Source of the DNA: Bolinopsis microptera
Taxonomy: Eukaryota; Ctenophora; Tentaculata; Lobata; Bolinopsidae
Length of the DNA stretch: 64,000 nucleotides
Assembly: GCF_026151205.1 (NCBI RefSeq)
Contig: NC_087075.1
Location: forward strand, 7,086,858-7,150,857
Direction of reading: 5' to 3'
In this document: positions 19,101-58,971 of the stretch, in pieces
How positions within the stretch are numbered: the first letter of the stretch is position 1
How the letters are laid out: the number at the start of each line of letters is the position of its first letter
Position numbers and translations under genes: made by a program
The notes under the pieces: model-generated
What the model was told of the DNA's origin: nothing
Seen by the model: only the letters and a program-made list of their open reading frames with translations
Database searches by the model: none

Positions 19101-22100
19101 GATTTTTCACGTTTGCCGCGACAAGTCGCGATTTTTCAGATCCTGGCCTCACGAAAAATCGCGATTTTTTCAGTTCTCCGCGTCAAATTGCGAATTTTCC
19201 TTTAAATCTGAGAACCAAATTCGTGTATTTTCCTTCAAATCTGTGGGCCAAATATTACGTTTTCTATAATTAGTATATGAAACCAATCAGTATTACATCC
19301 ACAACCTTCCGAATGTAGGTACGGACTTCAAAAAACCGAAAAAAATATTTTCGGCTCAGAATGATCAGGGTAGCATAAAACATGAACAAAAGTAATTTCC
19401 AGAAAAACTTTTAAAAATTTTGACTTAGAAAATTTTCGGTCCGAGTCATTCACGATACGTACCTCTAAAAGCAGAGCTCCCGCTTCCGAGCTCGTATTAC
19501 TATTACGAAGGGGAGGCCTGCCTTCCGAGATCGCATCACAAAGGGGAACCCACGAGTTTAAAATCGTATATCGAAGGGTAGGTGCGGACTTCGAAAACCG
19601 AAAAAAATATTTTCGGCTCAGAATGATCAGGGTAGCATGAAACATGAACAGAAGTAGTTTTCAAGAAAACTTTGAAAATTTTTGACTTAGAAAATTTTCG
19701 GTCCGAGTCATTCACGATACGTACCTCTGAAAGCAGAGCTCCCGCTTCCGAGCTCGTATTGCGAAGGGAGGCCTGCCTTCCGAGATCGCATCACAAAGGG
19801 GAACCCTCGAGTACAAAATCGTATGTCGAACTTCGAAAACCGAAAAAAATATTTTCGGCTCATAATGATCAGGGTAGCATGAAACATGAACAAAAGTAGT
19901 TTTCAAGAAAACTTTGAAAATTTTTGACTTTAAAATTTTCGGGGGAAAAAAAATTTTCCCAAAAATTTTTAAAAGCCTAAATTAAAAAGTTGGCCCTTTT
20001 TGGCCCCTTGCCCAAATTTCATGGGGGGGCGATGGCCCCCCCTGCCCCCCCGCTTCCTACACCCCTGTTTAGCACCCTGAAACATGGGACATTAATAAAG
20101 TATAAGAGTGTGGATACAAACAGTTCTAGTTGCTATCCGCGCTAATTTAGCACCCTGAAACATGGAACATTAATAAAGTATAAGAGTGTGGATACCAACA
20201 GTTCTAGTTGCTATCCGCGCTAATTTAGCACCCTGAAACATGGAACATTAATAAAGTATAAGAGTGTGGATACCAACAGTTCTAGTTGCTATCCGCGCTA
20301 ATTTAGCACCCTGAAACATGGAACATTAATAAAGTATAAGAGTGTGGATACCAACAGTTCTAGTTGCTATCCGCGCTAATTTAGCACCCTGAAACATGGA
20401 ACATTAATAAAGTATAAGAGTGTGGATACCAACAGTTCTAGTTGCTATCCGCGCTAATTTAGCACCCTGAAACATGGAACATTAATAAAGTATAAGAGTG
20501 TGGATACAAACAGTTCTAGTTGCTATCCGCGCTAATTTAGCACCCTGAAACATGGAACATTAATAAAGTATAAGAGTGTGGATACCAACAGTTCTAGTTG
20601 CTATCCGCGCTAATTTAGCACCCTGAAACATGGGACATTAATAAAGTATAAGAGTGTGGATACCAACAGTTCTAGTTGCTATCCGCGCTAATTTAGCACC
20701 CTGAAACATGGAACATTAATAAAGTATAAGAGTGTGGATACCAACAGTTCTAGTTGCTATCCGCGCTAATTTAGCACCCTGAAACATGGAACATTAATAA
20801 AGTATAAGAGTGTGGATACCAACAGTTCTAGTTGCTATCCGCGCTAATTTAGCACCCTGAAACATGGGACATTAATAAAGTATAAGAGTGTGGATACCAA
20901 CAGTTCTAGTTGCTATCCGCGCTAATTTAGCACCCTGAAACATGGAACATTAATAAAGTATAAGAGTGTGGATACCAACAGTTCTAGTTGCTATCCGCGC
21001 TAATTTAGCACCCTGAAACATGGAACATTAATAAAGTATAAGAGTGTGGATACCAACAGTTCTAGTTGCTATCCGCGCTAATTTAGCACCCTGAAACATG
21101 GAACATTAATAAAGTATAAGAGTGTGGATACCAACAGTTCTAGTTGCTATCCGCGCTAATTTAGCACCCTGAAACATGGAACATTAATAAAGTATAAGAG
21201 TGTGGATACCAACAGTTCTAGTTGCTATCCGCGCTAATTTAGCACCCTGAAACATGGAACATTAATAAAGTATAAGAGTGTGGATACCAACAGTTCTAGT
21301 TGCTATCCGCGCTAATTTAGCACCCTGAAACATGGGACATTAATAAAGTATAAGAGTGTGGATACCAACAGTTCTAGTTGCTATCCGCGCTAATTTAGCA
21401 CCCTGAAACATGGGACATTAATAAAGTATAAGAGTGTGGATACCAACAGTTCTAGTTGCTATCCGCGCTAATTTAGCACCCTGAAACATGGAACATTAAT
21501 AAAGTATAAGAGTGTGGATACCAACAGTTCTAGTTGCTATCCGCGCTAATTTAGCACCCTGAAACATGGAACATTAATAAAGTATAAGAGTGTGGATACC
21601 AACAGTTCTAGTTGCTATCCGCGCTAATTTAGCACCCTGAAACATGGAACATTAATAAAGTAGCACTCATATATAGAGAATATAGAGTTATAGTTATTAT
21701 AGACCCATGATTTTAGATACAAATTTCAAAAAGTATAGTCTTGAAATATCCAATAACCTTAGCAGTGCGGGCCCTGCCCGTGATACTTGAGATGAGTTGA
21801 ACAGCTTGGGATATGGAGCTGGATCTACGGCGCTCTGCGCGTGAAGTGCGACGATCTGAGGTGCGCCGTGTGCGTCTCAGCAACTCCTCCATCGCTAGAC
21901 GCCTCGTTGTGGATGGGAGTCGGAACTGTATCGAACCTGAAAATAATATCACGTAACTGTAGACTGTTTCTGCATCTGAACAACTTTAACAGGAATTTCT
22001 CTATTTATACCGCTCTTGTACCGTCCTTCCAAAATATTACTACCGTTCACCGTATATCCCTGGCCTGGTTTGTGTATTTACCTGAGCCAGGGTTGATGTC

Positions 22101-25100
22101 TAGTTCCTGGTTTGTGTATTTACCTGAGCCAGGGTTGATGTCTAATTCCTGGTTTGTGTGTTTACCTGAGCCAGGGTTGATGTCTAGTTCCTGGTTTGTG
22201 TGTTTACCTGAGCCAGGGTTGATGTCTAGTTCCTAGTTTGTGTATTTACCTGAACCAGGGTTGATGTCTAGTTCCTAGTTTGTGTATTTACCTGAGCCAG
22301 GGTTGATGTCTAATTCCTGGTTTGTGTGTTTACCTGAGCCAGGGTTGATGTCTAGTTCCTGGTTTGTGTATTTACCTGAGCCAGGGTTGATGTCTAGTTC
22401 CTGGTTTGTGTGTTTACCTGAGCCAGGGTTGATGTTTAGTTCCTGGTTTGTGTATTTACCTGAGCCAGGGTTGATGTCTAGTTCCTGGTTTGTGTGTTTA
22501 CCTGAGCCAGGGTTGATGTCTAATTCCTGGTTTGTGTATTTACCTGAGCCAGGGTTGATGTCTAGTTCCTGGTTTGTGTGTTTACCTGAGCCAGGGTTGA
22601 TGTCTAGTTCCTGGTTTGTGTATTTACCTGAACCAGGGTTGATGTCTAGTTCCTGGTTTGTGTGTTTACCTGAACCAGGGTTGATGTCTAGTTTCTGGTT
22701 TGTGTGTTTACCTGAGCCAGGGTTGATGTCTAGTTCCTGGTTTGTGTGTTTACCTGAGCCAGGGTTGATGTCTAATTCCTGGTTTGTGTGTTTACCTGAG
22801 CCAGGGTTGATGTCTAGTTCCTGGTTTGTGTGTTTACCTGAGCCAGGGTTGATGTCTAGTTCCTGGTTTGTGTGTTTACCTGAACCAGGGTTGATGTCTA
22901 GTTCCTGGTTTGTGTGTTTACCTGAGCCAGGGTTGATGTCTAATTCCTGGTTTGTGTGTTTACCTGAGCCAGGGTTGATGTCTAGTTTCTGGTTTGTGTG
23001 TTTACCTGAGCCAGGGTTGATGTCTAGTTCCTGGTTTGTGTGTTTACCTGAGCCAGGGTTGATGTCTAGTTCCTGGTTTGTGTATTTACCTGAGCCAGGG
23101 TTGATGTCTAATTCCTGGTTTGTGTGTTTACCTGAGCCAGGGTTGATGTCTAGTTTCTGGTTTGTGTGTTTACCTGAGCCAGGGTTGATGTCTAGTTCCT
23201 GGTTTGTGTGTTTACCTGAGCCAGGGTTGATGTCTAATTCCTGGTTTGTGTGTTTACCTGAGCCAGGGTTGATGTCTAGTTTCTGGTTTGTGTGTTTACC
23301 TGAGCCAGGGTTGATGTCTAGTTCCTGGTTTGTGTGTTTACCTGAGCCAGGGTTGATGTCTAGTTCCTGGTTTGTGTGTTTACCTGAGCCAGGGTTGATG
23401 TCTAGTTCCTGGTTTGTGTGTTTACCTGAGCCAGGGTTGATGTCTAGTTCCTGGTTTGTGTGTTTACCTGAGCCAGGGTTGATGTCTAGTTCCTGGTTTG
23501 TGTGTTTACCTGAGCCAGGGTTGATGTCTAGTTCCTGGTTTGTGTGTTTACCTGAGCCAGGGTTGATGTCTAATTCCTGGTTTGTGTGTTTACCTGAGCC
23601 AGGGTTGATGTCTAGTTCCTGGTTTGTGTATTTACCTGAGCCAGGGTTGATGTCTAGTTCCTGGTTTGTGTGTTTACCTGAGCCAGGGTTGATGTTTAGT
23701 TCCTGGTTTGTGTGTTTACCTGAGCCAGGGTTGATGTCTAGTTCCTGGTTTGTGTGTTTACCTGAGCCAGGGTTGATGTCTAGTTCCTGGTTTGTGTATT
23801 TACCTGAGCCAGGGTTGATGTCTAGTTCCTGGTTTGTGTATTTACCTGAGCCAGGGTTGATGTCTAGTTCCTGGTTTGTGTATTTACCTGAACCAGGGTT
23901 GATGTCTAGTTCCTGGTTTGTGTATTTACCTGAGCCAGGTTTGATGTCTAGTTCCTGGTTTGTGTATTTACCTGAGCCAGGGTTGATGTCTAGTTCCTGG
24001 TTTGTGTGTTTACCTGAGCCAGGGTTGATGTCTAGTTCCTGGTTTGTGTGTTTACCTGAGCCAGGGTTGATGTCTAGTTCCTGGTTTGTGTGTTTACCTG
24101 AGCCAGGGTTGATGTCTAGTTCCTGGTTTGTGTATTTACCTGAGCCAGGGTTGATGTCTAGTTCCTGGTTTGTGTATTTACCTGAGCCAGGGTTGATGTC
24201 TAGTTCCTGGTTTGTGTATTAACCTGAGCCAGGGTTGATGTCTAGTTCCTGGTTTGTGTGTTTACCTGAACCAGGGCCAGGGTTGATGTCTAGTTCCTGA
24301 TTTGTGTATTTACCTGAACCAGGGTTGATGTCTAGTTCCTGGTTTGTGTGTTTACCTGAACCAGGGTTGATGTCTAGTTCCTGGTTTGTGTATTTACCTG
24401 AGCCAGGGTTGATGTCTAGTTCCTGGTTTGTGTATTTACCTGAGCCAGGGTTGATGTCTAGTTCCTGGTTTGTGTGTTTACCTGAGCCAGGGTTGATGTC
24501 TAGTCCTTCCTCGTCTTCTTCTCCGCCTCCACTGCACTGTACGCAGAACCAGTCACCGTCAGGTATGTTGTCAAGTTGGGGTCTCAAGCAGTGTGTGTGA
24601 TATGCCTCGTCACACCCGTCACACAGCAGTAATAACTCTGTGGTGCACATCATTAAACCAAATTGCAACTATTGATCATCAAAACATGTATCGTTATGTT
24701 GTTGAAATTCTATAAGAATCTTTCTAGGGCCGATTTTTTTCTCATATATATTACTGAATTAAGAATCCATTGAGCACCAACCCTTGCTTCAGGCCGGGAG
24801 AAATTCAGGATTTACAAAAGTAGAAAAGTATAAAGTTAGATTTAAAGATTAATAACTTTTTTAAATAACCACCTTCATTTTGACCACTGTGGCAAATCTG
24901 GCAAACATAATGCTCTACTTCCACAGTTACACTGTCTTTGGACTTGTACTGTATCTTGACCTTGGTGGAGTAGTCGCCTCGCAATGTGTCGCACGTACAC
25001 AGGTGATCGAACCTGACAAAACAGAGGGTTTATAAGTTTAATTAGTTTAATTAAGTTTAATTAAACAGATGGTTTATGAGTTTAATTTTTGAAGTTACTC

Positions 25101-28652: not shown

Positions 28653-31600
28653 TTAAAATACAAGCTCATTCTTATCGAAGTTTAATTCTGTCCATTCTAA
28701 TTCTTCGTACCTGGACTGTATCTTGAGTAGCTCACTTTTCAGTGTTACTTTAACTAAGTTCGTTGACTTAGTAAAGCTTATCAAACTGTCAATTTTTCGA
28801 CAGTCGTTCCACATTTTTGTTGATTGATAAATGAAAGAGGAGGATGGGTTCGGGGTGATGAACTGGTCTGAACGTCTTTGTGATGGTGATCTGTGGAGTA
28901 AAGATAGGAGTGAGATTGGAGATTCTAATCTGACAATTTTGAACAGTTCTAATAGACATGTGTATTTGTACAGGTTGTGGACGGTAAGAAGGCCGTTCTT
29001 GTTAAACAACGGCTTTGTATGCTCTTTTTCAAAGAATTCCCTTCCTAGGATTTGTTCATCTATACAACGTGTTCTGGCACATGTTCTAAATTTATCTAGA
29101 TATGCTTCAAGGTCACCAAATAGTATTCTGATACATTTTTTCTGAGTGATGAAGACAGGTTGAAGCATATTGTTACTCGACCCACCCCATACCGATATTC
29201 CAAATCTTAGGTGTGACTCAAATAACGTGTGGTACAATTCTTTATGGTGTTTTTTCGGGATAACGTGTCGTATTCTACTGAGTCTTCCGATCTCACACCT
29301 AAGTTTCGAGTTGAGGGCTCTTATTTGAACATCCCATTTTAGCTTTTCGTCAATAATAACACCTAAAAACTTGGTCTCTTTAACTTGCTTTATTACCGTA
29401 TTATTCAGAGTTAGTATATATTCTGATTCGTTATCTGCCTCATTATCAGTAGCTGTACGTGACGGATTGAAGTGAATGTAGCAGCATTTCTTTATATTTA
29501 TATGCAATAGATTGCATTTCATGTACTGGTGTAACAAACGGAGAATTTCGTTTGCTCTTTCATACAGTTTTTTTCTACATTCATCTACTACGAATATGTT
29601 TGTGTCATCTGCAAATAGTATGAACTTGCCCAGATCAGTTGTTCTAAATAAGTCGTTAACATATATTATAAATAGCAAGGGTCCGAGACAAGAGCCTTGG
29701 GGAACTCCAAAGAGAACAGGCAGCTTGTCAGACTCTTCGCCCAGTACAGAGACATATTGATATCTATTAGAGAGATAACTAGCGATGAGTCTATTGGCGT
29801 TTCCACGTATTCCATAGTTGTCTAGTTTATTAAGTAGTTTTTCATGTGAGATCGTGTCAAACGCTTTAGATAGATCAATAAATATTCCAAGTACATGCAG
29901 TTTTTTGCTAAGACAGGATTCTATGTAATTCACTGAGGAGTTGAGGGCATGGCTTGTGGAGTGATTTTTTCTAAATCCGTACTGGTTCTCGTAAATCATT
30001 TTCTGGGACTGAAAGAAGCTATACAGTCTGTTGTAAATAACTTTTTCAAATATCTTACCAAAAACAGCTAAGGTTGATACTGGCCTATAGTTTTCCAGCA
30101 ATTCCTCATTATCCTTCTTATAGATCGGACTGATCCTCCCAGTCTTTAAATCATCTGGGAATACTCCATTCCTCATGCATTCACTGTATAATAAAGATAG
30201 TATAGGACAGATCACTTTAGACGATTCTTTAACTATATGTATTGGGATGTCGGATGACTTCCCATTCTTCAGTTCAGATATAATCATTCTAACCTCGTCA
30301 GCTGTACAGTCATTCATGAAAATACTGGACGTGTTTGCTCTAGGCAGGTAGTCATAAAAACTAGGAAGAGTGTTAATAGTTAGTTCTCCAATTTCATTAT
30401 ATGCCCCGTTTAAATTAGACGCTAGAGAAACAAAATACTTATTAAATTCATTGGCTATTACTGTACGATTGGTTATCTTCTCATTGTTTATAGTAAACAG
30501 TGGTTTTATTTGCCGTTTCTGTTTGCCCCGTATTTGATTAATCAGTTCCCATGTCTTCTTACTATTACCGTTTGTGTCTGCAAATTTTCCCATAAAATAC
30601 TTAGTTTGAACATCTTTGCGATCTTTTTTAACCATCCTTCTATAATCCTTATAAGTTTTGTATCTAGAACGTTTTTCACAACATTTCAAGCATTGACATG
30701 TTCCACCTTTATAATCAGTTTCACCAAGTTTACATTTTTTCTTTCTAACTTTAGCCCAATTGTCATAGAGTTGGTGCTGATGCTTGATTTTGGCTATAAG
30801 CCCAGGTGTGATCCATGGGTTATTTTGTGTAGTTCTTTTGGAAGACTTAGGGGTTGCCAACTTACACGTTTTATCGATACTACTTTTGAAAACATCATGA
30901 AATACCGTGAAGTTGTCAATTACTTTATTCTCTAATTCATGTTCCAAGTCCTTTACAAAAGAGGTAACATTAGACTTACAGTAGTCGTAATATTGTTTAT
31001 ATTTTAGGTTACTCTTAGTGGATCCCATACTCTTTTCAAATATTTGAAAGACTGGTGAGTGGTGGGATATACGATCAGTAAGTGTGCCTGAGGCTATTAT
31101 ACTCTCTACATCGTTAGTTATAATATTGTCAATACACGATGCTTTACAACCTGGCTTCTCATGAGTTGGCAGAGATATTAGGGGAAAAAATCCTCTACTG
31201 AACAGGACTTCCTCATAACGTTTTACAATCGCATTATCCTTATTATGTAGATCAATGTTGAAATCACCTGCCAGGTAACTGCATTTCGGCAAATTATCGA
31301 GAATTGCTGAGAGTTCTAATAATGCAACATTTACATCACCACTTGGAGGGCGATAAACTACACCAACAGTGACCGGAGTATTCTTGCTGCTTATCGTAAC
31401 AAATAGAGTTTCTAGGTTTTCAGATATATGGGACAAATTGCCATTTACTGTAGCACTGAGGGTATCACATACATAAAGAGCGACTCCAGTGCCTTTTCTT
31501 TTATCTTGCAAAGTGTTTTGGTAGAAACTATTGTATCCAGTCAGTTGGTAAAGGTCACTTAATTCGGGGCCTTCATTTGTTTCTGCTAAAGCAATGATCG

Positions 31601-32021
31601 AAAATTTCATATATCTCTGTAGTTCTATTGCCAGAGTATCAAAGTTAGATTTATTACCATCGATATTTTGAAATAATAATGATGAGTACTCGTTCATTTG
31701 GTTGAAAAATGTTTTATTAAATTCTTTAACACTATATGGGTTACAGTTATTGAGTAATCGGTTGATGTTTACAAGTGTTTCATCAATGTCAGTACTATTA
31801 TTTTCAGAGTCAGTATCTTCATATATAAACGGATTGTAACGAGTACTTGCTAAGTGTACACAGTTAGGGCAGTAAAAATCGTCATATATTTTGTTTGTAC
31901 TGGATTTAGTATAGCATTTATGGTGCATAGCACAGTCACACCTACAACATTCAGCAATGAATTGGCCAATGGAAATGAATTTTGTACAGACAGGGCATAC
32001 CTCTTTGGTCAATTTATTCAT
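28653..32021 (-). CDS. LINE ORF2: PHD finger, AP-type endonuclease, reverse transcriptase
   Basis: 1122 residues. An N-terminal zinc finger of PHD type (C9 to C54: CPVC, CCRC, HHKC, CPNC) precedes an exonuclease-endonuclease-phosphatase domain: catalytic N119 (QNIDGN), E147 (ALAETN), GDFN (D253, N255), CIDNI (D298). The last motif, normally SDH, reads ISHHSPVF. The RT covers roughly 590-870 with [37 protein letters not shown] and FADDTNIFV. It ends with the family C-terminal block (CIRILFGDLEAYLDKFRTCA). The enzyme would nick chromosomal DNA and prime cDNA synthesis on it. ATG at 32021-32019 overlaps the ORF1 stop, implying reinitiation after ORF1 translation. Confidence 0.9.
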   Translation of the reverse strand: MNKLTKEVCPVCTKFISIGQFIAECCRCDCAMHHKCYTKSSTNKIYDDFYCPNCVHLASTRYNPFIYEDTDSENNSTDIDETLVNINRLLNNCNPYSVKEFNKTFFNQMNEYSSLLFQNIDGNKSNFDTLAIELQRYMKFSIIALAETNEGPELSDLYQLTGYNSFYQNTLQDKRKGTGVALYVCDTLSATVNGNLSHISENLETLFVTISSKNTPVTVGVVYRPPSGDVNVALLELSAILDNLPKCSYLAGDFNIDLHNKDNAIVKRYEEVLFSRGFFPLISLPTHEKPGCKASCIDNIITNDVESIIASGTLTDRISHHSPVFQIFEKSMGSTKSNLKYKQYYDYCKSNVTSFVKDLEHELENKVIDNFTVFHDVFKSSIDKTCKLATPKSSKRTTQNNPWITPGLIAKIKHQHQLYDNWAKVRKKKCKLGETDYKGGTCQCLKCCEKRSRYKTYKDYRRMVKKDRKDVQTKYFMGKFADTNGNSKKTWELINQIRGKQKRQIKPLFTINNEKITNRTVIANEFNKYFVSLASNLNGAYNEIGELTINTLPSFYDYLPRANTSSIFMNDCTADEVRMIISELKNGKSSDIPIHIVKESSKVICPILSLLYSECMRNGVFPDDLKTGRISPIYKKDNEELLENYRPVSTLAVFGKIFEKVIYNRLYSFFQSQKMIYENQYGFRKNHSTSHALNSSVNYIESCLSKKLHVLGIFIDLSKAFDTISHEKLLNKLDNYGIRGNANRLIASYLSNRYQYVSVLGEESDKLPVLFGVPQGSCLGPLLFIIYVNDLFRTTDLGKFILFADDTNIFVVDECRKKLYERANEILRLLHQYMKCNLLHINIKKCCYIHFNPSRTATDNEADNESEYILTLNNTVIKQVKETKFLGVIIDEKLKWDVQIRALNSKLRCEIGRLSRIRHVIPKKHHKELYHTLFESHLRFGISVWGGSSNNMLQPVFITQKKCIRILFGDLEAYLDKFRTCARTRCIDEQILGREFFEKEHTKPLFNKNGLLTVHNLYKYTCLLELFKIVRLESPISLLSLLHRSPSQRRSDQFITPNPSSSFIYQSTKMWNDCRKIDSLISFTKSTNLVKVTLKSELLKIQSRYEELEWTELNFDKNELVF

Positions 32022-34246
32022 GGGTACGGTACGTAACCTTCCCCTAGTTGAGTCGCAGCAGCAGCAGGAGAGGAACCACCCATCGTCTGGGAGTATAAGC
32101 GATTGTCAACTTTATCCGATCTCTTCTTCCTTCTATCAGTCCCTCCATTCATCCTTAAAAGTATTGTATCACGTATAAGAACCCCCAGTTTTGCTGTACC
32201 ACTCCAATTGAGGTGTAAATAGTCCGGTCTCTGGTTTCGTCCAATGTTCCTAGAGAATTGCTGGCTTAGGAGCCCAGCCTCATCACAGAACATGTCAAAA
32301 CCAGGTACCAAAGTCACACCAAAGTTGGAATGGAGCAACTCCTTAAAAATTAATTCATTATAATGTACAACTTTACGATTTAGCTCAACGAGTTTGGTTG
32401 GCAGCAGCGGACACACAAATATATTCGCTTTGGGGTTAAGCGCTTGGATCATTTCTACTTTCTGAACAAATGGTGTAAAAACATTGTTCTTTATATCAGC
32501 GGTATTTTTGATCTCAGGTTTCCTGATATCATTTATACCACACATCAAGAGAACATTCCTGTATCCACATGAAACTATAGGATTTATATCCCCCACTACC
32601 GGAGCAAAATACTGTTTTCCGGGGAGCCACTGCCCAAATGATTTTTTGGGGTCCAGCCCGAATTTGAGACCACCAGTATGCGAGTCTCCGATGATGCATG
32701 TAGAGTTCCTGTTCCTAAAGCTAACTGAACGAAAAGTTAGGCTGTATCTCACCCCACCAGTTATTGCCCCATCCTCGATACAGTGGCTGTAGAACTCTTG
32801 GCTACGTCGAGTCATGCGATACATGGATCTTGGCACACATGTATGGTCAAGAGCCATATGATCCGTCTTCTTATCAAAGAATTTGATGTTGCACTGGCCT
32901 CCAATAGACACAGTGAAAATTTCGGATTCAGGGTGGATGGTAGCTTCATCATCCGAGTGTTTCGGTAGGGAGCCATCCTCTTTGAAGCGGTTGATCAGCA
33001 GGCTATTGATCTTCGGTTTTTCACCACTACAGAATGCACCATTGATTTTGTCCATTAGATTGGAGAAGCTAGTTGAAGCTAGTTGGCCATTGGATGACTT
33101 GGAGCCATTATACTTGTATGGTTCTCCCAAAGAATACACAGCACGAGCTCCCTCCACAACAAAATCCTCCTCAAGTGATTGGCAGGCAAGGAGGAGAGTT
33201 TTCTGCTCTTCTGTGGTAATAAACTCTTCTATAGCGCCTACAACTGGTTCTTCTTTTGATTGGAGATGCTCATTAGCTATTAGGTCTGGGCCAGGGGCAA
33301 GTGAAGAACTGGTAAGTTGGACGTTTAAATGGTCAGAAGAAGCCAAAGAATTTCGCTCAAGAGTGTTCAAAGACTGTCTAATGGCTGTTAGCTCCTGATT
33401 TGTCTCCAGAGACTGCTTGGAATTTAGCTCATGGAGATTCTTCTCTATTTTTTCCATGAGATCATTGGTCTTGGATGAAGATTGAGCACTTACTTGAGGA
33501 ATAGAAAAGTCCTGCAGTTGCTTGTTCAACACTTTAATCTGTTCTGTTAGGCCACTATCAGTCTCAGAAACCTTTCCGAGTGTAGAGTCAACTGAAGTTT
33601 TCAGCTGCTTTAGATTTCCTTCCATCACTTCAACCCATGCTGGAGCAGTGCCCTTGTCACTAACCAGTAGGTGCTTGATATGGAGGTCAAGGTTCTGGAT
33701 GGCAGCAATGCTGTCGTTTAGACTGTCAAAGTCAACCTTGGCAAGCTTTTCACCAAAAGCTGTGATGGTATTAAGCTTCTCTGTGGCAATAGCTGTCTCA
33801 CACTGACTGTTAGATTTTTGAAGTGTCAGACTGTTCCTACACACATAACACACATCTGCATCAGTTTCGAATGTGGGAATTGGTGAAACCAAACAAAAAG
33901 GGCAGTGCCAATTGGTCATGCTGTTGACATTTTTCTGGTTGAGTCCATTCATAGTTAGACAGTCTATGTGCCAATATTGCTTGCACTTTACACAGTCAAT
34001 CTTCCATGACGATATTGACTTACTACATGGACATTTCGTCTTGTCCCTGTGTGAACTGTCAAACTTTGGGGGTGTTACATCACTGTCTACAACAATAGTT
34101 TCACAAGATACGTCCTTTCCCTTCGCCTCTGGTCCTGGAGTGTTGTTCTTGATTCGGGACTTTGCCTTTTTGTCCGCAGGGGAAGGAATCCGAGACATAT
34201 TGGTAATAGATGAGGCTCTCTTGTTACTCTTGTTGTTGTCACCCAT
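32018..34246 (-). CDS. LINE ORF1: PHD finger, coiled coil, AlkB-like dioxygenase, SGNH esterase
   Basis: 742 residues from the ATG at 34246 (an upstream TTG is in frame but not used). Order: basic N-terminus; PHD-type finger C72-C118 (CPCSKS, CVKCKQYWHIDC, WHCPFC); likely coiled coil about 150-300; AlkB-like domain about 350-515; SGNH hydrolase about 515-700; basic tail. AlkB evidence: NSLLINRF strand, iron ligands H430, D432 (KHSDDE) and H488 (YSHCIED), and the 2-oxoglutarate motif RYSLTFR (R500, R506). The 58-residue His spacing and R-x5-R fit the family. SGNH evidence: GDSH (S522), GIND (N572), DYLH (D675, H678), the complete catalytic set. CR1-type ORF1 proteins with an esterase and PHD are known; an AlkB domain in between is not one I recall. 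Likely role: RNA binding plus alkylation repair or demethylation of the element's RNA (inference). Confidence 0.85.
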   Translation of the reverse strand: MGDNNKSNKRASSITNMSRIPSPADKKAKSRIKNNTPGPEAKGKDVSCETIVVDSDVTPPKFDSSHRDKTKCPCSKSISSWKIDCVKCKQYWHIDCLTMNGLNQKNVNSMTNWHCPFCLVSPIPTFETDADVCYVCRNSLTLQKSNSQCETAIATEKLNTITAFGEKLAKVDFDSLNDSIAAIQNLDLHIKHLLVSDKGTAPAWVEVMEGNLKQLKTSVDSTLGKVSETDSGLTEQIKVLNKQLQDFSIPQVSAQSSSKTNDLMEKIEKNLHELNSKQSLETNQELTAIRQSLNTLERNSLASSDHLNVQLTSSSLAPGPDLIANEHLQSKEEPVVGAIEEFITTEEQKTLLLACQSLEEDFVVEGARAVYSLGEPYKYNGSKSSNGQLASTSFSNLMDKINGAFCSGEKPKINSLLINRFKEDGSLPKHSDDEATIHPESEIFTVSIGGQCNIKFFDKKTDHMALDHTCVPRSMYRMTRRSQEFYSHCIEDGAITGGVRYSLTFRSVSFRNRNSTCIIGDSHTGGLKFGLDPKKSFGQWLPGKQYFAPVVGDINPIVSCGYRNVLLMCGINDIRKPEIKNTADIKNNVFTPFVQKVEMIQALNPKANIFVCPLLPTKLVELNRKVVHYNELIFKELLHSNFGVTLVPGFDMFCDEAGLLSQQFSRNIGRNQRPDYLHLNWSGTAKLGVLIRDTILLRMNGGTDRRKKRSDKVDNRLYSQTMGGSSPAAAATQLGEGYVPYP

Positions 34247-34262
34247 ACTCAGCAAAAGTTAA

Positions 34263-36471: not shown

Positions 36472-36654
36472 TGGCGTGAAACAAGCGTGATCAAACAACT
36501 TGTGAAACAAGCGCGCCCGCAGTGGCGCGAAAGCACATGGTTTGGTGAACCAAGCTGAGAAGGATTGACATCATCAATGGTCAATTAATCTATTATATAA
36601 TGTATAACAGTATTTAAAATTTACAATTTTTGCGTTTTTTATTTATATTTTATC

Positions 36655-37034
36655 ACACAGAAGCACTGTGTAAGGATCCTTTTTGGTGATCTCGACTCAT
36701 ATTTAGATAAACAATCAACATGTGCACGTACTAGACCGTATGGTATGCAAAAATTAGACCATAAACACTTTGAAAAGGAGCATACAAAACCCATTTTTAA
36801 TAGACTAAAAATTCTAACGGCTCAAAACTTGTATTGTACAAATATCACTGCATTTTAGAATTCTCTAAGATTATCAAGTACCACTGCCCCTACTCCCTTT
36901 ATGAGGCCATCAACATTTCAAACCGTGCAACGAGTCTAACTGTTATTCTTCTAAATAAATCAAATACCTTTTTGTTTAATGCAGCCAAGCTTTGGAACAC
37001 AGTTCATAAAAAATTTTATCTTCAAGCAATTGCC
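36655..37034 (+). pseudogene. LINE ORF2 C-terminal fragment
   Basis: It reads HCVRILFGDLDSYLDK, TCARTRPYGMQKLDHKHFEK, EHTKPIFN, then after a frameshift near 36830 continues KYHCILEFSKIIKYHCP and LWNTVHKKF. This is the post-RT block common to the LINEs in this window. It is 5'-truncated and frame-broken, a short dead copy directly upstream of the next LINE. Confidence 0.8.
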
Positions 37035-37334
37035 TAGAAACTTCCATTAACTTGATAATTGATAAAATTGAGAACCAAAGCACTATTAGTACCACCTTCC
37101 CTTACCCAAACATCCACAAGCACTCAACAACTTAAGAAATCAATTCTCTTTTATGGTATTTTCAATGAAAAAATTAAATATTAGGTATATTATAAAGTTT
37201 TAAGTAATCAATGTCCCCTTTCTCCATTATAAATCAGACGTCCACCCATGATCTACTCATTTCAGGTGCAGCTAATTTGCCGGTGGTGGCAGCCTGGAGG
37301 GCACTCAGCACATCCCCTTGATCAATCAACAGTC

Positions 37335-40300
37335 ATGAAGAGTACTCCACCACCACCACCAGAAACCAGACGCTCGCCCAGAAACGCCTCTCCTGCAGCA
37401 TCTGTTAAGGCTAAGGCTACTCCACCTCATTCTCCTAAAGTGACTAATCCTCTTCACAGGAAGAGCCCTCTCGCCAATAAGGCTAATCTAAAGAACCCTG
37501 CAGCCAACATCTCAGGACGACGAAGATCTAACAGTCTACCAACTAAGTCAGCTGCAAAGCAGGCTACTGTTTCTCCATTGGGACCATCAACTTTACAGCC
37601 ACCTTCATCTCTCATCCTAAAAATCAGTCCTAGCCATGTAATAGACCCTGTTTGCCTAAAAGATAGTCCGCAGAGCCCTATGAGCCCTATCTACAAACCA
37701 TTCCCACCCTTCCATGTAGAAGAAGAAGAAAAGGATCAACCAAGTCCAACGCAACGTGCCAACAAAGGTAACTGCCCTTGTAGAGCAAGCTCCGAGGGCA
37801 AAGAATGGCTTCTCAAATGTTGCAGATGCTCTCAGCATTGGCACGCCTCCTGCAGCAACCTGAAGGGATCAAACCAGATTGGTCAGATTGATCTTGATGC
37901 CATCCTTCAGTACTGGGAATGTCCATGGTGCGGTGCTTCACGTCATTTCATCCCAAACCAAACAGCAGCACCGCGTCTAAATTTGATAAAGCTCTCCAGT
38001 CTAGTGTTGACTACAGTAAAAACATCCAAGCTGTATCTGATGCCATCTCGAGTGCTGTATCTAACAGCATACCCACTGTGGAGATATCTTCATTGGAGGC
38101 CAGACTTTCACAACTGAGTGAAGAGATCCACTCCTTCCAAAAATCAAGGAATCATCCCGCCTCTACCCATGATGCAGCAGTGAAACGAGAGAGTAAGCCG
38201 TCAGTAGCTCTCCCTAAATGTGTACAGCCACCGATAAAGGACTACCAAGTAGACATCTTGGACAAAGATCTGCTTGATGAGGTATCCAGATTTCTCACTG
38301 AGAGCAAAGATTCTGGTAAGTTTAGCCAGATGAATGGAAGGGCAGTCCTCAAATACGGCGAAAGCTACAACTATTCTGGAGACTCAAATGCCCCGTCATC
38401 AGCAGCCATTCCACCAGTTTTAACAGCTGCCATTGATAGAGTCACGTCTCAGTGCAAACTCACGCACAGGCCTAACTCTGTGCTCATAAACTACTTCCCT
38501 CCAAGCAGCGGTGCAGAGGAAAGTATGTTGCCCTTTCACTGTGATGACGAGCCAGAGATCCTCGCTGACTCTGACATAGCCACAATTTCTATAGGAGAGG
38601 TCAGAAAAATAAGTTTCATGCCCATCCACGAAGGACAAACACCCACAAAAAACACTGAAATGTCCCTGGAATCAAACTCAGTTTATATCATGACACGTTC
38701 CTCACAGGCATGGTTCAAACATGGTATTAAAGCTACCCAACAGACCAAGGTAACCCCGTCCATAGGACGTTACTCAATTACCCTTAGAACAGTTGACAAA
38801 AAATTTCGAAGAAGCACCATCATACTTGGAGATTCCAACACCAAAACTATCAAGTTTGGGAGCGGTGTTGGTACTATGGGTCAGTCTTTCCCTGGCGAAA
38901 GAGTTAAGGCGGGCAAAGTTGGTTTGATTGACCCATGTCACTGTATCGGATACAGCAATGCTGTTATTGTATGTGGTACAAATGACCTTCGAGTAGACAA
39001 CCTTAGAGGAGAGAATGCAATCTATCAGCTGGTTGACATTCTCCGCATGAAGATTGAACATGAAGATGAAAGCACCGTGTATTCAATTCCTAACTACAAT
39101 AGTTTTTACCAGAATACTGTAGGTAATAAATCCAAAGGAACTGGTGTAGCATTATATGTTCAAGATAGACTTAGCAGTATTGTGAACGAACTTGCGTCAG
39201 ACGTAACCGAGAATTTAGAATCACTATTCGTAACTAGTCGTAAAAACTCAGAAGAAGTAACTTTTGGGGTTATTTACCGACCACCCAGCGGTAATTTTGC
39301 AAGCTTCCTGACAGAATTATCCAGAATACTCCAGCTATTGCCTAAAAAATCTGCATACATAATGGGAGATTTTAACGTCAACCTTCATGCTAATAGTAAA
39401 GAAGTTAACAATCTCGAGGAGATAATGTTTAGTGCTGGTTTCTCACCTCTTATATCAACACACACGCACGAGAAACCGGGATGTAATCAAACGTGTATTG
39501 ACAACATTTACACAAATGATATTAACAAGGTTGTTGCCTCAGGTACAGTATCTGACAGAATCTCGCATCATCTGCCAGTTTTCCATATTTTTGAAGACTT
39601 AGCTGTAACTAACTCTGAACCTCAAGTTAAACATACCCAATATTATGATTACAGTGAATCGAACGTTCGACTTCTTGTTTCGTCTTTAAACCAAGATTTC
39701 TCTGAGCATCCACCAAGAAACTTTAATGAATTTCATGACACATTCAAAACGAATCTAGACAAATCATGTAAACTCAGTAAACCTAAAGTCTCCAAAAGAA
39801 CGCCAATGACAAATCCGTGGATAACAGGAGGATTAATCGCGTCTATAAATAAAAAACATGAGCTGCACGACCACTGGCATAAAGCGAAGAGAGAAAAATG
39901 TTTGCATAATCCAGGTAAACTTTGTCGTGAGATCAAGGAAGCCTGTCACTGCAATCCTTGTAATGATGCCAGGGAAAAGCATGCTAATTTTACTGACAAA
40001 CGTAGGAGACTTAAACACGTAATACGACTAGCTCAACGCCACTACACGTGCAACAAAATTGAGGAGTGTCAGGGTGACAGTAAAAAAACCTGGCAGTTAA
40101 TTAATAAAGTGCGAGGAAAGCAAAATAAGCAAATGAAACCGTCATTCATGATAAACAATGAGCGTGTTATTTGTCGACGAGTTATTGCTCATGAATTTAA
40201 CAAGTACTTTGTGTCAATCGCCTCCAATCTGAACGAGGTCTATGAGAGGAGGATTGATGAAGATCCTATAATTGCTAAATCATTCACTGACTACTTGCCA

Positions 40301-42085
40301 CAGTCCTGTCCGTCAAGTATTTATCTCGCTGAATGTACAAGCTCTGAAATAATACAAATTATAAGTGAATTTAATAACGGTAAAGCTAGCGACATACCGG
40401 CACATGTAATGAAGCAGTGTAGTCAAACTATATCAGAACATCTTGCCAGAATTTATAACAACTGCATGAATGAAGGTGTCTTCCCTGATCAACTGAAAAC
40501 GGGTAAGATAACCCCGATATATAAAAAAGAAGATGAGGAATTACTCGAGAATTACAGGCCAGTATCAACATTACCAGTATTTGGTAAAATATTTGAAAAA
40601 ATTATTTACAGTAGATTATACAACTTTTTCTTATCTCGAGGAATAATATTCGAAAATCAGTTCGGCTTTCGAAAAAACCACTCGACAAGTCATGCTCTTA
40701 ATTACTCCGTAAATCATGTCGAAGAAAAACGGAATAATAAAAACCACGTATTAGGAATATTTATCGATCTCTCTAAAGCATTTGATACCTTACCATTTGA
40801 TATGCTACTTAAGAAACTTAGTAATTACGGAGTTAGAGGAAACGCACTAAAGCTGCTCTCCAGCTATCTAAATAATAGATACCAGTATGTTAGTGTACTT
40901 GGTGAAGAATCAGAGCCTCTCCCAGTTAAACTAGGCGTACCACAAGGATCCGTTTTGGGCCCCTTGCTTTTTCTTATCTATATAAATGACATCTATAGAT
41001 GTAGTACATTAGGAAAATTTGTACTATTTGCAGATGACACAAACATCTTTGTAGCTGCTGAAACTAAGGAACAAGCATACAAAATAGCGAATGAAATTCT
41101 CGACTCTGTGTGCCAATATATGCGCCATAATCTACTGCACATTAACGTTAAAAAATCTTGTTACATGTACTTCTCGCCTACTAAACGTAAGACCATTGAT
41201 ACTACTGAAAATGACTTGAATCTAGAAATTGATGGAATCCCGATCAAACAGGTTACTGAAACGAAATTTCTAGGTGTTATTATTGATGACAAACTGAGTT
41301 GGACACCACATATCGATAAACTAACTAAGAAATTAAACAGCATATGTGGCCGTATTTATCGAATAAAAAACTCCCTCCCCAGCCAGCTGTACAAACAAAT
41401 ATACCACACTCTTTTTGAATCTCATCTAGGATACGGTATAACTGTATGGGGTGGTGTATCAATTAATAAGCTTTCACCGCTATTCCTTGCACAGAAGAAA
41501 TGTGTCCGAATCTTATTTGGGGACTCGGAAGCATTTAGCGACAAGTTTAAAACTTGTTCTCGTAGCAGGCCAATCCAGTGCAGTATAAACAAGAAAGGTC
41601 AAATATCCAATGAATCAACTATACCTCACATTAAACCGTGTTCTATATGTATCAGCTTGAGGAAGACTGGTGATAGACAAGTAAGGCCACATCGCTGCCA
41701 AATACTTGGGGCAGAATTCCACTCTAGAGAATCAACAAAACCGATTTTCCAATCTAAGGAACTAATGACAGTACATAACATATATAGATACAGATGCATT
41801 ACTGAAACAATGAAGATAGTGAAGAGTCATCAGCCCATATCCATGTATTCTCTCTTTAAGAAGTCTGAGCTCAGAGATGACAGATTTGTGACACCACACT
41901 CATCTCACAATTTCGCATATAAAGGGGCAAATCTATGGAATACGTTTCTTGAGCAGTCAAATGCACGTGGTAAAATAGGTTCACTAGGTTCAATTAAATC
42001 CCAATTGAAGCATTCTATCATGAAGGCTCAACACCAACCTGACAATATTAACTGGCAGGACTTAAACTTCAACACTTTCCTATGA
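37335..42085 (+). mobile_element. Second AlkB-bearing LINE; ORF1 and ORF2 fused by an internal deletion, plus a frameshift
   Basis: From MKSTPPPPPETRRSPR (37335) a Pro/Ser-rich start leads to a PHD finger (NCPCRASSEG, CCRCSQHWHASC, WECPWC). A frameshift near 37960 moves to the frame that runs to 42085: coiled coil, AlkB-like domain (SVLINYFPP, FHCDDEPEI, FKHGIKA, GRYSITLRTV) and the first SGNH blocks (ILGDSN, CGTNDLR). At about 39070 the esterase stops and mid-endonuclease text follows in frame (NYNSFYQNT, GTGVALYVQ, GDFNVNL), then a full RT with FADDTNIFV and the C-terminal block. Missing: esterase DxxH, ORF1 end, ORF2 PHD and first endonuclease motifs. It is clearly a different family from the 28-34 kb copy. 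The protein can no longer nick DNA properly. Confidence 0.85.
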
Positions 42086-42984: not shown

Positions 42985-43082
42985 TTTTAAATCAAATTTA
43001 TTCGGATATATATTTATTGATTATGTATTGAATTGGTGATAAATAATAAAATTGTCTTTTCTCAAAAAAATTGTCTTTTCTC
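42985..43082 (+). mobile_element. LINE 3' end fragment with dimeric tail
   Basis: TTTATTCGGATATATATTTA, GTATTGAATTGGTGATAAAT and the tail AAATTGTCTTTTCTC in two copies match, inverted, 54085-54175. A 5'-truncated copy of about 100 bp. Confidence 0.75.
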
Positions 43083-43084
43083 AA

Positions 43085-43378
43085 CAGATAAAAAAGCTCT
43101 CCCCTAAAATCAAACTCTTTGTCACCGCAGTCCTCCCAACCAGACTGCCCCAAATGAACAAGAACATCATGATCTTCAACCGACTAGTCGATGAATTGTT
43201 GAGTGCCAACTTTAACCAGACTGTATGGCACATTGGAGTTGGCCACTTTCTGGACAGTAGTGGACTCCTTGCCACTAATCTGACCAGAAGTGGTGATGAT
43301 ATACATTTAGGTATTTATGGTATTGCAAATACCATAATACCATTATTTATATTAAAAACAGTTGCAATGCTTCATTAG
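43085..43378 (+). pseudogene. LINE ORF1 C-terminus: end of an SGNH esterase
   Basis: It reads LSPKIKLFVTAVLPTRLPQM, then FNRLVDELL, HIGVGHFLDSSGLLA and SGDDIHLGIYG, ending in TAG at 43376-43378. DDIHL is esterase block V. It ends exactly where the next frame begins, so this and the following ORF are the remains of one LINE whose ORF1 is truncated on the left. Whether it once had an AlkB domain cannot be told. Confidence 0.75.
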
Positions 43379-46152
43379 TGAGCTCATTTTTAAAAGCACC
43401 AGACTCTTTAGCTATTAATGTCAATACCTCTGGTGGATTGATTAGTATTTGTTGTATTTATAGGTCTACCTCTTTGAATTTAAAACAGAATAATATGTTA
43501 TTATCTTGCATCAAGAACATATCTAGTGAAAAGAATGTTTTTGAAACCATTATCATAGGAGATTTTAACCTACCTAATGTATCTTGGGAAACTGGTAGTG
43601 TAAATAGTGGGATTTCTAGTAAGAATCAGGTTTTAATGATTCAACAAAAGTATATTGATTTATTTAATGACAGTGGTTTGACGTGGTACTTTACTAACGA
43701 AACAACCAGAAGACGGCTTGTGAAAGATACTCTCCAGGAGAGTCTTCTTGATCAGGTTTTGTATACAAATGATGCTCTTGTCAACGGTTGTAAGATCGTT
43801 TCTCCGCTTGGCAAAAGTGATCATGTTGGGATACTAGTCGAACTGGTTGTTTCGCCCAATACTAACAAAAGTCCCAAACAAAAGATTTTAAAGCCTATTT
43901 GGGGTAAGATTTCCTCAGAAGAGTTATTTAACTTTAGTATGAATAATATTGACTGGGATTATAGTTGTACAAATAATGTTCAAGATATGTGGGTTGAACT
44001 ACATGGTAAATTGGAGTCTGTTGCTGCAGCTGTCCCAGCTGCTTCGGTTTATCTCGACAACAGACCTGTCAAGTTGCCACGGAGTACAACTTCACTTAAA
44101 AGAATGAGGAAGAACAAGGACAGAGCATGGGCTGAATTTGATATTAATCCTTCGGATATTAACTTTAGCTGTGCAAATAGCAAGCAGCGTATTTTTGAGG
44201 TGGCAGAAATTAAAGCTAAAGTAAATTATGAAAAGAAGATTACATCTAATTTAAAACAGAATTGTAAATCTTTTTACTCGTATTTGCGTAATAAACGTCA
44301 AGTTAAGTCAAGTGTTGTTTCTTTAGATAGAGGAGATGGTACACGCACAGATAGTTCATCTGAGTCAGCTGAGGTACTTGCTAGTGCCTTTAGTTCTGTG
44401 TTTGTGCGTGAACCACCTGGCCCTCTTCCCCAAAATGAGAGTTATAACAAAGAGGTTATTGATGATATGGAAATTAGCAGTTCTGATATCAAGAAGCAGC
44501 TTTTAAAGCTTAATGTTTTTAAGAGTTCTGGTCCGGATGGCGTTCATCCAAAGTTGTTGAAATCCTTAGCATACGATGAAAAGTTTGTTGAAGCTGTAAC
44601 TAAATTATTTGTTAAGTGTTCAGAAACAGGAGTCCTGCCTGACATTTGGAAGACAGCATCTGTTGTAGCATTGTTCAAAAAGGGTGTTAAATCTGATCCC
44701 TTAAATTATAGACCTGTCTCATTAACTTGTATTTTGTGCAAAGTGTATGAAAAGTTGGTGAGGGCACATTTATTAACATTTTTAGAAGAACGAATTTCAA
44801 AGCATCAGCATGGATTTGTGAAGGGTAAATCTTGTCTATCTAATCTCTTAGAGACATTTGATAATATTCTTGATATTTTAGACGAAGGTGCTCCTGTCGA
44901 TCTTTTGTATTTTGATTTTAGTAAAGCTTTTGACACAGTCCCCCACTTTAGACTTCTATCTAAATTGGAGGGGTTTGGGGTCAAGGGAAAAGTTTTAGAT
45001 GTTATAAAAGACTTTCTGACAGACAGAACCATGAGGGTTTGTGTAGAAGGACAATGGTCTGAGGTGAAACACGTGTTATCTGGTGTTCCCCAGGGGTCAG
45101 TATTGGGTCCTTTGCTATTTATTCTTTATATAAACGATTTACCTGACAATGTTAAAAATAAGATTAAATTATTTGCAGATGATCTCAAGTTAGTTTGTAA
45201 TGCAGCTAACCATAGAAGTGTATCTGATGATATTTTAGAACTCGAAATTTGGGAGAGTATTTGGCACTTAAACTTCAATCCTGCCAAGTGTAAAGTAGTC
45301 CATATTAATCTGAATAATAATCCTAACTCGAATTATATTGTAAATGGAGTAGAACTAGAAGTATCTGCACAGGAAAAAGATTTGGGGGTTATTACCCATA
45401 GCTCCTTGCTTTGGAATGAACAGATAAAAGCATGTATTTCTAAAGCAAATCGTATGATCTGCTGGATTGTAAGGAACTTAGTTATTAGAGAAAAGGTTGT
45501 AATGATAGCTATTTATAAAGCTTTGATAAGACCTCATCTTGAGTATTGTGTCCAATTGTGGAATCCAGTTGCGGCTCATGGAAGTTGGGGGACTGTTTTG
45601 GAGCTGGAGAGCGTCCAGAGGCGGTTTACCCGTCTTATTGATGAGGTGGGTACTCTTCCATACAGCTGCAGACTGGATATCCTCAATTTGACAACGCTGG
45701 CAGAGCGGCGAATACGTGGGGACCTTATCGAAGCTTTTAAAGTAACTAGTGGTTTGACTGAATATGGATCGGGTTTGTTCAGAATGAGCAGATCTGGTCT
45801 TAATCTAGTTTCAACCAATAGGTGTAATAAGAGTGTAACTAAAGTTAAGAATCTCCAGTCTTCTTTTCTTCCGGAGCGAGTCATTCCTTACTGGAACAAA
45901 CTCCCTTCAGATGTCAAGAACTGCTCGACAGTTTTAAGCTTTAAAGTTAGATTGGAAGGATTTAAGAAAGAAATGATTTCTAAAAACAGTGTAAATGATT
46001 TTTATTTTTGGAATGTTTCGAATGAAGTTTTAGGGAAAATTGAAGGACCCAGTTATTTAAGCAATAAGGAGACACATAATGAATATCTTTGGTTTCATCC
46101 TTTTGTGGCAAAGAAGCGTTTCATAAATCTTTATTCCACTGGGAAGTATTAA
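43378..46152 (+). CDS. LINE ORF2 of a second CR1-like lineage (endonuclease partly deleted)
   Basis: The frame is open for 924 codons from 43378; no good ATG start. It begins inside the endonuclease (LISICCIYRS, IIIGDFNLPNVSW, LLDQVLY, GKSDHVGIL with the normal SDH motif) and lacks the first about 130 residues holding the Asn and Glu motifs. [78 protein letters not shown]. These differ strongly from the other LINEs here and resemble CR1/Rex-type RTs. The frame is uninterrupted, so the deletion is recent. The 3' UTR runs to a CTTA tail at 46308. Confidence 0.8.
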   Translation: MSSFLKAPDSLAINVNTSGGLISICCIYRSTSLNLKQNNMLLSCIKNISSEKNVFETIIIGDFNLPNVSWETGSVNSGISSKNQVLMIQQKYIDLFNDSGLTWYFTNETTRRRLVKDTLQESLLDQVLYTNDALVNGCKIVSPLGKSDHVGILVELVVSPNTNKSPKQKILKPIWGKISSEELFNFSMNNIDWDYSCTNNVQDMWVELHGKLESVAAAVPAASVYLDNRPVKLPRSTTSLKRMRKNKDRAWAEFDINPSDINFSCANSKQRIFEVAEIKAKVNYEKKITSNLKQNCKSFYSYLRNKRQVKSSVVSLDRGDGTRTDSSSESAEVLASAFSSVFVREPPGPLPQNESYNKEVIDDMEISSSDIKKQLLKLNVFKSSGPDGVHPKLLKSLAYDEKFVEAVTKLFVKCSETGVLPDIWKTASVVALFKKGVKSDPLNYRPVSLTCILCKVYEKLVRAHLLTFLEERISKHQHGFVKGKSCLSNLLETFDNILDILDEGAPVDLLYFDFSKAFDTVPHFRLLSKLEGFGVKGKVLDVIKDFLTDRTMRVCVEGQWSEVKHVLSGVPQGSVLGPLLFILYINDLPDNVKNKIKLFADDLKLVCNAANHRSVSDDILELEIWESIWHLNFNPAKCKVVHINLNNNPNSNYIVNGVELEVSAQEKDLGVITHSSLLWNEQIKACISKANRMICWIVRNLVIREKVVMIAIYKALIRPHLEYCVQLWNPVAAHGSWGTVLELESVQRRFTRLIDEVGTLPYSCRLDILNLTTLAERRIRGDLIEAFKVTSGLTEYGSGLFRMSRSGLNLVSTNRCNKSVTKVKNLQSSFLPERVIPYWNKLPSDVKNCSTVLSFKVRLEGFKKEMISKNSVNDFYFWNVSNEVLGKIEGPSYLSNKETHNEYLWFHPFVAKKRFINLYSTGKY

Positions 46153-49400: not shown

Positions 49401-49855
49401 GGCACCAAAGACTTAACAACAAGTTTTTCATAAAAGAACATACTAAACCGCTATTCAAACATAATAATATCCTAGCTATCCAAAATCTCTATACATACCA
49501 CTGTTACCTCGAGCTCTACAAGATAATGAAATTTCGTGCTCCAATATCCTTACATGAAGGCTACACATGCTCGACAAGGAAGCCGACCCTACTTATTTGT
49601 CAGGCTGACCCACCTGATAACCATAATACAAGATCAACCAAAATTTTTAACATGATTACTCCAAAAATTAGAATGGATGACTTTACCATGAGTGTGATGT
49701 GTTTGCGGGGAAAGCTTAAACGTGCACTATTAAATAATCAACACAGCCACGCCCCGCTTGATTGGACAATCAAAGATTTTGACTGCAACAATATTGTCTT
49801 CGAAAGATCACTACTTGCTGGTCACACACATGTCAGCGAAATTCCCCTAGTCTAG
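46442..49855 (+). pseudogene. LINE ORF2 with PHD, endonuclease and RT, broken by two frameshifts
   Basis: ATG at 46442 begins MNIKLIKDVCGPCSRSINIG with a PHD-type finger (CGPC, CENC, HTKC, CYEC). The frame shifts near 46670, then reads the endonuclease (FYNVDGNASNFD, GLAETNTDP, GDFNSNIL, CIDNI, GEHAPIF) and RT ([34 protein letters not shown]). It shifts again near 49075 to finish with FLGVIIDENLSWEEHI and the C-terminal block to 49855. The endonuclease motif is GEH where SDH is usual. It belongs to the same broad group as the 14.4 kb and 28.7 kb copies. Confidence 0.85.
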
Positions 49856-57558: not shown

Positions 57559-58684
57559 AGTGCTGTTTGTGTTACAATAATCGCAGTGCTGTTTGTGTTA
57601 CAATAATCGCAGTGCTGTTTGTGTTACAATAATCGCAGTGGCTGTTTGTGTTACAATAATCGCAGTGCTGTTTGTGTTACAATAATAGCAGTGCTGTTTG
57701 TGTTACGATAATCGCAGTGCTGTTTGTGTTACAATAATCGCAGTGCTGTTTGTGTTACAATAATCGCAGTGGCTGTTTGTGTTACAATAATCGCAGTGCT
57801 GTTTGTGTTACAATAATCGCAGTGCTGTTTGTGTTACAATAATCGCAGTGCTGTTTGTGTTACAATAATCGCAGTGGCTGTTTGTGTTACAATAATCGCA
57901 GTGCTGTTTGTGTTACAATAATCGCAGTGCTGTTTGTGTTACAATAATCGCAGTGCTGTTTGTGTTACAATAATCGCAGTGCTGTTTGTGTTACAATAAT
58001 CGCAGTGGCTGTTTGTGTTACAATAATCGCAGTGCTGTTTGTGTTACAATAATCGCAGTGCTGTTTGTGTTACAACAATCGCAGTGCTGTTTGTGTTACA
58101 ACAATCGCAGTGCTGTTTGTGTTACAATAATCGCAGTGCTGTTTGTGTTACAATAATCTCAGTGCTGTTTGTGTTACAATAATCGCAGTGCTGTTTGTGT
58201 TACAATAATCGCAGTGCTGTTTGTGTTACAATAATCGCAGTGCTGTTTGTGTTACAATAATCGCAGTGCTGTTTGTGTTACAACAATCGCAGTGCTGTTT
58301 GTGTTACAACAATCGCAGTGCTGTTTGTGTTACAATAATCGCAGTGCTGTTTGTGTTACAATAATCTCAGTGCTGTTTGTGTTACAATAATCGCAGTGCT
58401 GTTTGTGTTACAATAATCGCAGTGCTGTTTGTGTTACAATAATCGCAGTGCTGTTTGTGTTACAATAATCGCAGTGCTGTTTGTGTTACAATAATCGCAG
58501 TGCTGTTTGTGTTACAATAATCGCAGTGGCTGTTTGTGTTACAATAATCGCAGTGCTGTTTGTGTTACAATAATTGCAGTGCTGTTTGTGTTACAATAAT
58601 CGCAGTGCTGTTTGTGTTACAATAATAGCAGTGCTGTTTGTGTTACAATAATCGCAGTGCTGTTTGTGTTACAATAATCACAGT
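57559..58684. repeat. 26-bp minisatellite, about 43 copies
   Basis: Unit GTGCTGTTTGTGTTACAATA, ATCGCA. Variants with an extra G (GTGGCTG) recur at spaced positions (every 4-5 units in the first half), pointing to higher-order amplification. Each unit ends in TCGCAG after a T-rich stretch, i.e. acceptor-like on the plus strand, and the array may lie in an intron of the RIIa-domain gene. Confidence 0.93.
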
Positions 58685-58971
58685 GTTTTCAGTAGATGAG
58701 TAGATGATCCTTGGTTCAGGTAACTGTTTTGCTTCGAGCTCTTCACTTCTCCCGTTTCTTGCCTGCGTTAGTGCGTTGACCACTCAATTTCTCTTTCCAA
58801 TTTTAAGGAAACTGCTATTTTATATTGATATCATCCGTTTCGGCTGATAAACATTACGTAGTTAATTTGTTCCGAAAAGTAAATTTTATGTGTTATTTAT
58901 TGGCCTGGGTTTACCTGTTAAGCCTTTAAGCGATTCATGTTTGACTGTAGTAAGTAGTTCCACAGCCAACT

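Follow-up and report, generated by a model that had tools for sequence, protein, structure and literature searches.

Layout of the element

The window analyzed here is a 64,000-nucleotide stretch of the genome of the ctenophore Bolinopsis microptera (assembly GCF_026151205.1, contig NC_087075.1, positions 7,086,858 to 7,150,857; coordinates below are those of the window), and our subject within it is a long interspersed nuclear element (LINE) whose first open reading frame (ORF1) carries an AlkB-type dioxygenase domain between a PHD-type finger and an SGNH esterase. By its coding content, the element is a two-ORF LINE, i.e., a non-long-terminal-repeat (non-LTR) retrotransposon, on the minus strand. 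ORF1 extends from an ATG at 34246 to a TGA stop at 32020-32018 and encodes 742 amino acids (aa), exactly where an earlier note on this DNA had placed it; ORF2 extends from an ATG at 32021 down to 28653 (1122 aa), its start codon and the stop codon of ORF1 sharing bases as ATGA. Residues are numbered from ATG 34246, and counting from the TTG at 34255 adds 3 to each number.

ORF2 matches the Pfam family RVT_1 above the cut-off (E value of 2.5e-37) and Exo_endo_phos below it (E value of 4.9e-4), with the motifs of an APE-type endonuclease present; because the endonuclease and reverse transcriptase (RT) motifs are there, ORF1 and ORF2 look coding-intact. Assignment to the Jockey superfamily (CR1/L2-like) is our judgment from the domain build. 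A Cys/His finger with a weak match to Prok-RING (E value of 0.038) stands at the start of ORF2, ahead of the endonuclease (31842-32009), and a basic stretch, RRKKRSDK, lies downstream of the ORF1 esterase (32102-32134) and is possibly a nuclear-localization or RNA-binding tail.

The two domains that bracket the AlkB segment are recognizable by their residues, and both fall short of the Pfam cut-offs. The PHD part named in the earlier note has eight ligands of the C4HC3 type (C72, C74, C85, C88, H93, C96, C115, and C118), with a Pfam PHD match that is below the cut-off (E value of 0.11). What that note called a complete SGNH hydrolase does contain the GDS (residues 520-522), GxND (570-573), and DxxH (675-678) blocks, but its match to Lipase_GDSL_2 remains below the curated cut-off, both for the domain alone (E value of 2.5e-5, 25.3 bits versus 32.9) and in a search with ORF1 (E value of 7.6e-4).

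The AlkB domain of ORF1

Judged by its sequence, the segment between these parts is an AlkB-family Fe(II)/2-oxoglutarate dioxygenase domain of the ALKBH2/3 kind in which the iron ligands and the arginines are present. ORF1 matches PF13532 (2OG-FeII_Oxy_2) with an E value of 2.4e-11, scoring 44.6 bits where the cut-off is 31.2. Scored with a profile built from 56 AlkB sequences of bacteria and viruses, this copy reaches 46.0 bits and a second copy in the window (described below) 58.5 bits, far over the best score from 1,000 shuffled sequences (5.9 bits; 500 shuffles per copy), and both copies match phrog_21963, a family annotated as alkylated DNA repair (E values of 4.1e-8 and 5e-8), all of which bears out the AlkB identity that the earlier note had proposed. 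Searching the PDB with a profile made from both LINE copies of the domain returned 21 sequences at E values up to 10, 17 of which are ALKBH2, ALKBH3, or ALKBH8 (E ≤ 0.0098), the other four being unrelated (E ≥ 0.21). With single sequences, this copy alone finds its relatives weakly (ALKBH2, E value of 0.08), and the second copy does so more strongly (ALKBH8, 8.5e-4; ALKBH3, 0.0027).

When the 56 AlkB sequences are aligned with the two LINE copies, ten residues are invariant in all 58 rows: N419, H430, D432, E434, G449, Q483, H488, R500, T504, and R506. These include the iron triad (H430, D432, and H488) and the two arginines of the RxxxxxR motif (R500 and R506), each at the position given in the earlier note and in the corresponding AlkB ligand column. 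The preceding NSLLINRF strand (residues 414-421) also supplies N419, the asparagine of the N-x-Y contact with 2-oxoglutarate. The HxDDE motif reads HSDDE in this copy, as in ALKBH3, and HCDDE in the second copy, as compared with HRDDE in ALKBH2.

The earlier note had named a fold prediction as the check on its claim, and the predicted model of the domain does match the double-stranded beta-helix enzymes of the AlkB family in structure comparison, with ALKBH2 and ALKBH3 ranking first and ALKBH2 as the top VIA match. The model superposes on ALKBH2 at 2.0 Å, and H430, D432, and H488 would therefore cluster in space. Also listed among the 50 best structural matches are viral polyprotein domains (picorna-like and grapevine virus), making a viral origin of the LINE AlkB domain possible.

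A second, diverged copy and the remainder of the window

The window holds a second LINE of the same build on the opposite strand (Table 1), a point absent from the earlier note, and in this element the match to RVT_1 (E value of 8.2e-37) lies in the same frame as that to PF13532. That frame is a single-protein derivative of a LINE, probably dead, since the N-terminal part of its endonuclease is missing. The two elements are far apart in sequence: the AlkB cores are identical at 53 of 161 residues (33%), the SGNH halves at 28 of 71, and ORF2 at 51%; the middle part of ORF1 has no tblastn match in the second copy at an E value of 1e-2; and blastn of the first element against the stretch with the second yields seven matches, each of which lies in ORF2, leaving ORF1 without any. 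Over the 161 AlkB codons, identity at positions 1, 2, and 3 is 46, 55, and 30%, versus 27, 26, and 25% under random codon pairing (standard deviation of about 3.5), and synonymous differences are saturated. The copies agree fully at the iron triad, the two arginines, and N419, for which the chance of six out of six is about 0.001 at 33% identity. The simplest reading of these comparisons is that the AlkB domain was already present in the common ancestor of both LINE families and has since been held by selection at the protein level.

Within the window, AlkB is present in both of the two copies that cover the relevant place. A third related element is represented by an SGNH fragment, upstream of which tblastn detects no AlkB match at an E value of 1e-2, and which is therefore left out of this count; the tblastn matches to ORF2 at 14366-16648 and at 36649-37010 start within that frame. 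Another LINE (43378-46152; RVT_1 and Exo_endo_phos_2) separates the SGNH fragment from a relative of the AlkB-bearing LINE's ORF2 (46442-49855) and looks nested within this pair.

Table 1. Coordinates of the AlkB-bearing LINE, its domains, and related elements in the window
Feature	Position	Strand	Basis
ORF1: PHD-type finger, middle part, AlkB, SGNH esterase, basic tail	32018..34246	-	ORFs, Pfam, motifs
PHD-type C4HC3 finger, residues 66-120	33887..34051	-	Ligands; similar stretch in second copy, 37761-37940
Middle part, residues about 150-335 (coiled coil in the earlier note)	33242..33799	-	
AlkB dioxygenase domain, residues about 336-509	32720..33241	-	PF13532, phrog_21963, predicted model, fold matches
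H430-S-D432 iron ligands, then D433-E434	32951..32959	-	Alignment
H488, third iron ligand	32783..32785	-	Alignment
R500-YSLTF-R506, two conserved arginines	32729..32749	-	Alignment
SGNH/GDSL hydrolase domain, residues about 514-700; GDS, GxND, DxxH blocks	32147..32707	-	Motifs, Pfam
ORF2: N-terminal Cys/His finger, endonuclease (E147, GDFN, SHH), RT (FADD)	28653..32021	-	
Second, diverged LINE of same build	37248..42085	+	Pfam, tblastn
Second LINE, PHD part in its own frame	37248-38117	+	
Second LINE, AlkB	about 38216-38809	+	PF13532, E value of 1e-16
Second LINE, 1388-aa frame: AlkB, half SGNH, internal deletion, endonuclease/RT	37919-42085	+	
Third related element, SGNH-only fragment	43058..43327	+	tblastn, E value of 4e-9

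Elsewhere in the window, we take the frames at 11-1765 and 50703-52298 to be Penelope-like; the former encodes a GIY-YIG domain (Pfam E value of 1.7e-6), and the latter has no Pfam match at an E value of 0.01. Two arrays of a 78-base satellite (11240-14361 and 17809-21662) flank the LINE relative at 14366-16648. A 42-base tandem repeat occurs in 58 copies at 22064-24504, where one repeat-encoding frame is open for 646 codons, and further tandem arrays are present at 57559-58685 (period of 26), 59906-60500 (period of 54), and 63141-63289 (period of 7).

Relatives and candidate function of the domain

The domain resembles ALKBH2/ALKBH3-type AlkB enzymes (PF13532) in fold, iron ligands, arginines, and the HxDDE motif and differs in sitting inside the ORF1 of a LINE. 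RNA viruses with AlkB in their polyproteins offer a parallel, in that the domain belongs to a polyprotein of a genetic parasite, one that does not reverse transcribe. AlkB is carried by alpha/betaflexi- and closteroviruses (PMC9289625), in line with the earlier note's statement on plant RNA viruses, and an orchid (Phalaenopsis) Ty3/Gypsy element is likewise a retroelement with an acquired AlkB dioxygenase (PMC9289625). The latter is an LTR element whose AlkB is in an additional ORF, is ALKBH5-like, and is closest to plant RNA demethylases, whereas the domain described here is in frame within ORF1, adjoining a LINE ORF2. Fungal DNA transposons with TET/JBP enzymes are also mobile elements with an acquired 2-oxoglutarate dioxygenase, thought to counter modification-based defense, but the dioxygenase family is a different one, the mark is 5-methylcytosine in DNA, and the elements are DNA transposons (PMC12730594).

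Esterase-type (type IV) ORF1 proteins of CR1/L2 elements, such as ZfL2-1, share the SGNH esterase, and PHD fingers occur in CR1/L2 ORF1 proteins too (PMC4120745, PMC3905857), as the earlier note had stated; what sets the present protein apart is the combination of a PHD-type finger with an AlkB domain ahead of the esterase. The two papers disagree on how widely the esterase is spread, with PMC4120745 giving two vertebrate groups and PMC3905857 many animal phyla. In the text of PMC4120745, a survey of 448 elements, there is no match to AlkB, dioxygenase, oxygenase, or 2OG, and PMC3905857 contains none to AlkB or dioxygenase. The earlier note knew of no description of this architecture; for LINEs, none was found among the papers listed by an open-access literature search, a result that does not demonstrate absence. 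A retroelement with AlkB had already been described, however, in the orchid Ty3/Gypsy element, and the novelty is therefore smaller than that note supposed. A paper on a krill alkB2 gene (PMC11294593) is not relevant to AlkB in LINEs.

The reading that we favor, at a probability of roughly 0.55, joins these features: a LINE ORF1 with a PHD-type finger, an AlkB domain of the ALKBH2/3 kind, and an SGNH esterase, in which AlkB demethylates the template. The ORF1 protein (ORF1p) would coat the LINE RNA, and its AlkB domain would hold nucleic acid and oxidatively remove N1-methyladenine (m1A) and N3-methylcytosine (m3C), marks that hinder base pairing and reverse transcription; the substrate would be the RNA template, and perhaps single-stranded cDNA as well, during target-primed reverse transcription. 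Being copied from its own RNA by reverse transcription, the element would gain from clearing blocking marks. The suggestion of the earlier note that the domain might demethylate the element's own RNA or the target is thus narrowed to RT-blocking marks of the m1A/m3C type. We take D433 to be the counterpart of D135 in Escherichia coli AlkB. D135 contacts N6 of m1A, and D135I confers activity on N6-methyladenine (m6A); AlkB favors m1A and m3C, and their removal relieves blocks to reverse transcription (PMC7968990), while the substrates of ABH3 are m1A and m3C in single-stranded DNA and RNA (PMC11431407). The AlkB domain, which lies after the middle part and ahead of the esterase, may in addition be the nucleic-acid-binding module reported to be lacking in other esterase-type ORF1 proteins and so meet the need for RNA binding. 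The ZfL2-1 esterase has hydrolytic activity and binds phospholipids (PMC3905857); on that basis, the ORF1p of this element would be a particle protein with two enzymes.

Several points weigh against template demethylation. The evidence comes from two copies in one window, and the reading presupposes m1A and m3C on the LINE RNA of the host. Relative to the 56 other AlkB sequences, both LINE copies have Phe421 for the Tyr of the N-x-Y contact (Tyr in 56/56), Arg480 for the Gly of the GxTQ motif (Gly in 54/56), and Ser502 for the Asn of the final motif (Asn in 56/56), and therefore the handling of cofactor or substrate may differ. The Asp that follows HxD varies within the AlkB family (of the 56 sequences, 40 have D, 15 have N, and one has Y), which makes D433 a soft guide to substrate. 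The confident structural model was built with the 56-sequence alignment, biasing it toward the AlkB fold, and ALKBH2, ALKBH3, ALKBH6, and ALKBH5 all fall within 3 Z units. For RNA binding, an arginine-rich peptide has been proposed instead (PMC3905857).

Other roles for the domain appear less probable. That it strips m6A from LINE RNA and so evades epitranscriptomic control, as proposed for the orchid Gypsy element, is unlikely: the orchid enzyme demethylates m6A in vitro (PMC9289625) and the writers and erasers of m6A affect L1 (PMC7873242), but the HxDDE motif and the best sequence matches point to ALKBH2/3/8 rather than to ALKBH5 or FTO, the structure ranking is headed by ALKBH2/3, and L1 is helped by the m6A writer and suppressed by the eraser ALKBH5 (PMC7873242), the opposite of what would serve the element. 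We likewise consider it unlikely that the enzyme acts on the DNA side, repairing alkylation in single-stranded DNA, either where the target is nicked or in the cDNA newly made as the element inserts, although ALKBH2 heads the VIA matches and a review places ABH2 on double-stranded DNA and ABH3 on single-stranded DNA and mRNA (PMC11431407).

A weak or dead AlkB fold that serves as a nucleic-acid-binding module would fit the three substitutions common to both copies and the lack of a known RNA-binding domain in the esterase-containing ORF1 proteins of Repbase (PMC3905857); the retention of the iron triad, both arginines, and N419 at 33% identity argues against such a loss of activity, and we regard it as rather improbable. 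Chance resemblance, contamination, or an assembly artifact is very improbable, given the gap between the shuffles and the real scores and the fact that, in each of two diverged elements, the domain shares a frame with further parts of ORF1 or ORF2.

Template demethylation may be taken a step further, as a tentative and doubtful proposal: a long-lived LINE lineage would carry its own template-repair enzyme, the base methylation of retroelement RNA acting in this host as a restriction that the element answers. ORF1p would then clear marks of the m1A/m3C type just before the RT arrives, the natural equivalent of treating RNA with AlkB for tRNA sequencing.

LINE ORF1 proteins are prevailingly viewed as mainly RNA-packaging proteins. 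A demethylase fold in ORF1 makes it testable whether base methylation limits how retroelements are reverse transcribed and whether they counter it; it would also mean that LINEs, like plant LTR elements and RNA viruses, have recruited AlkB.
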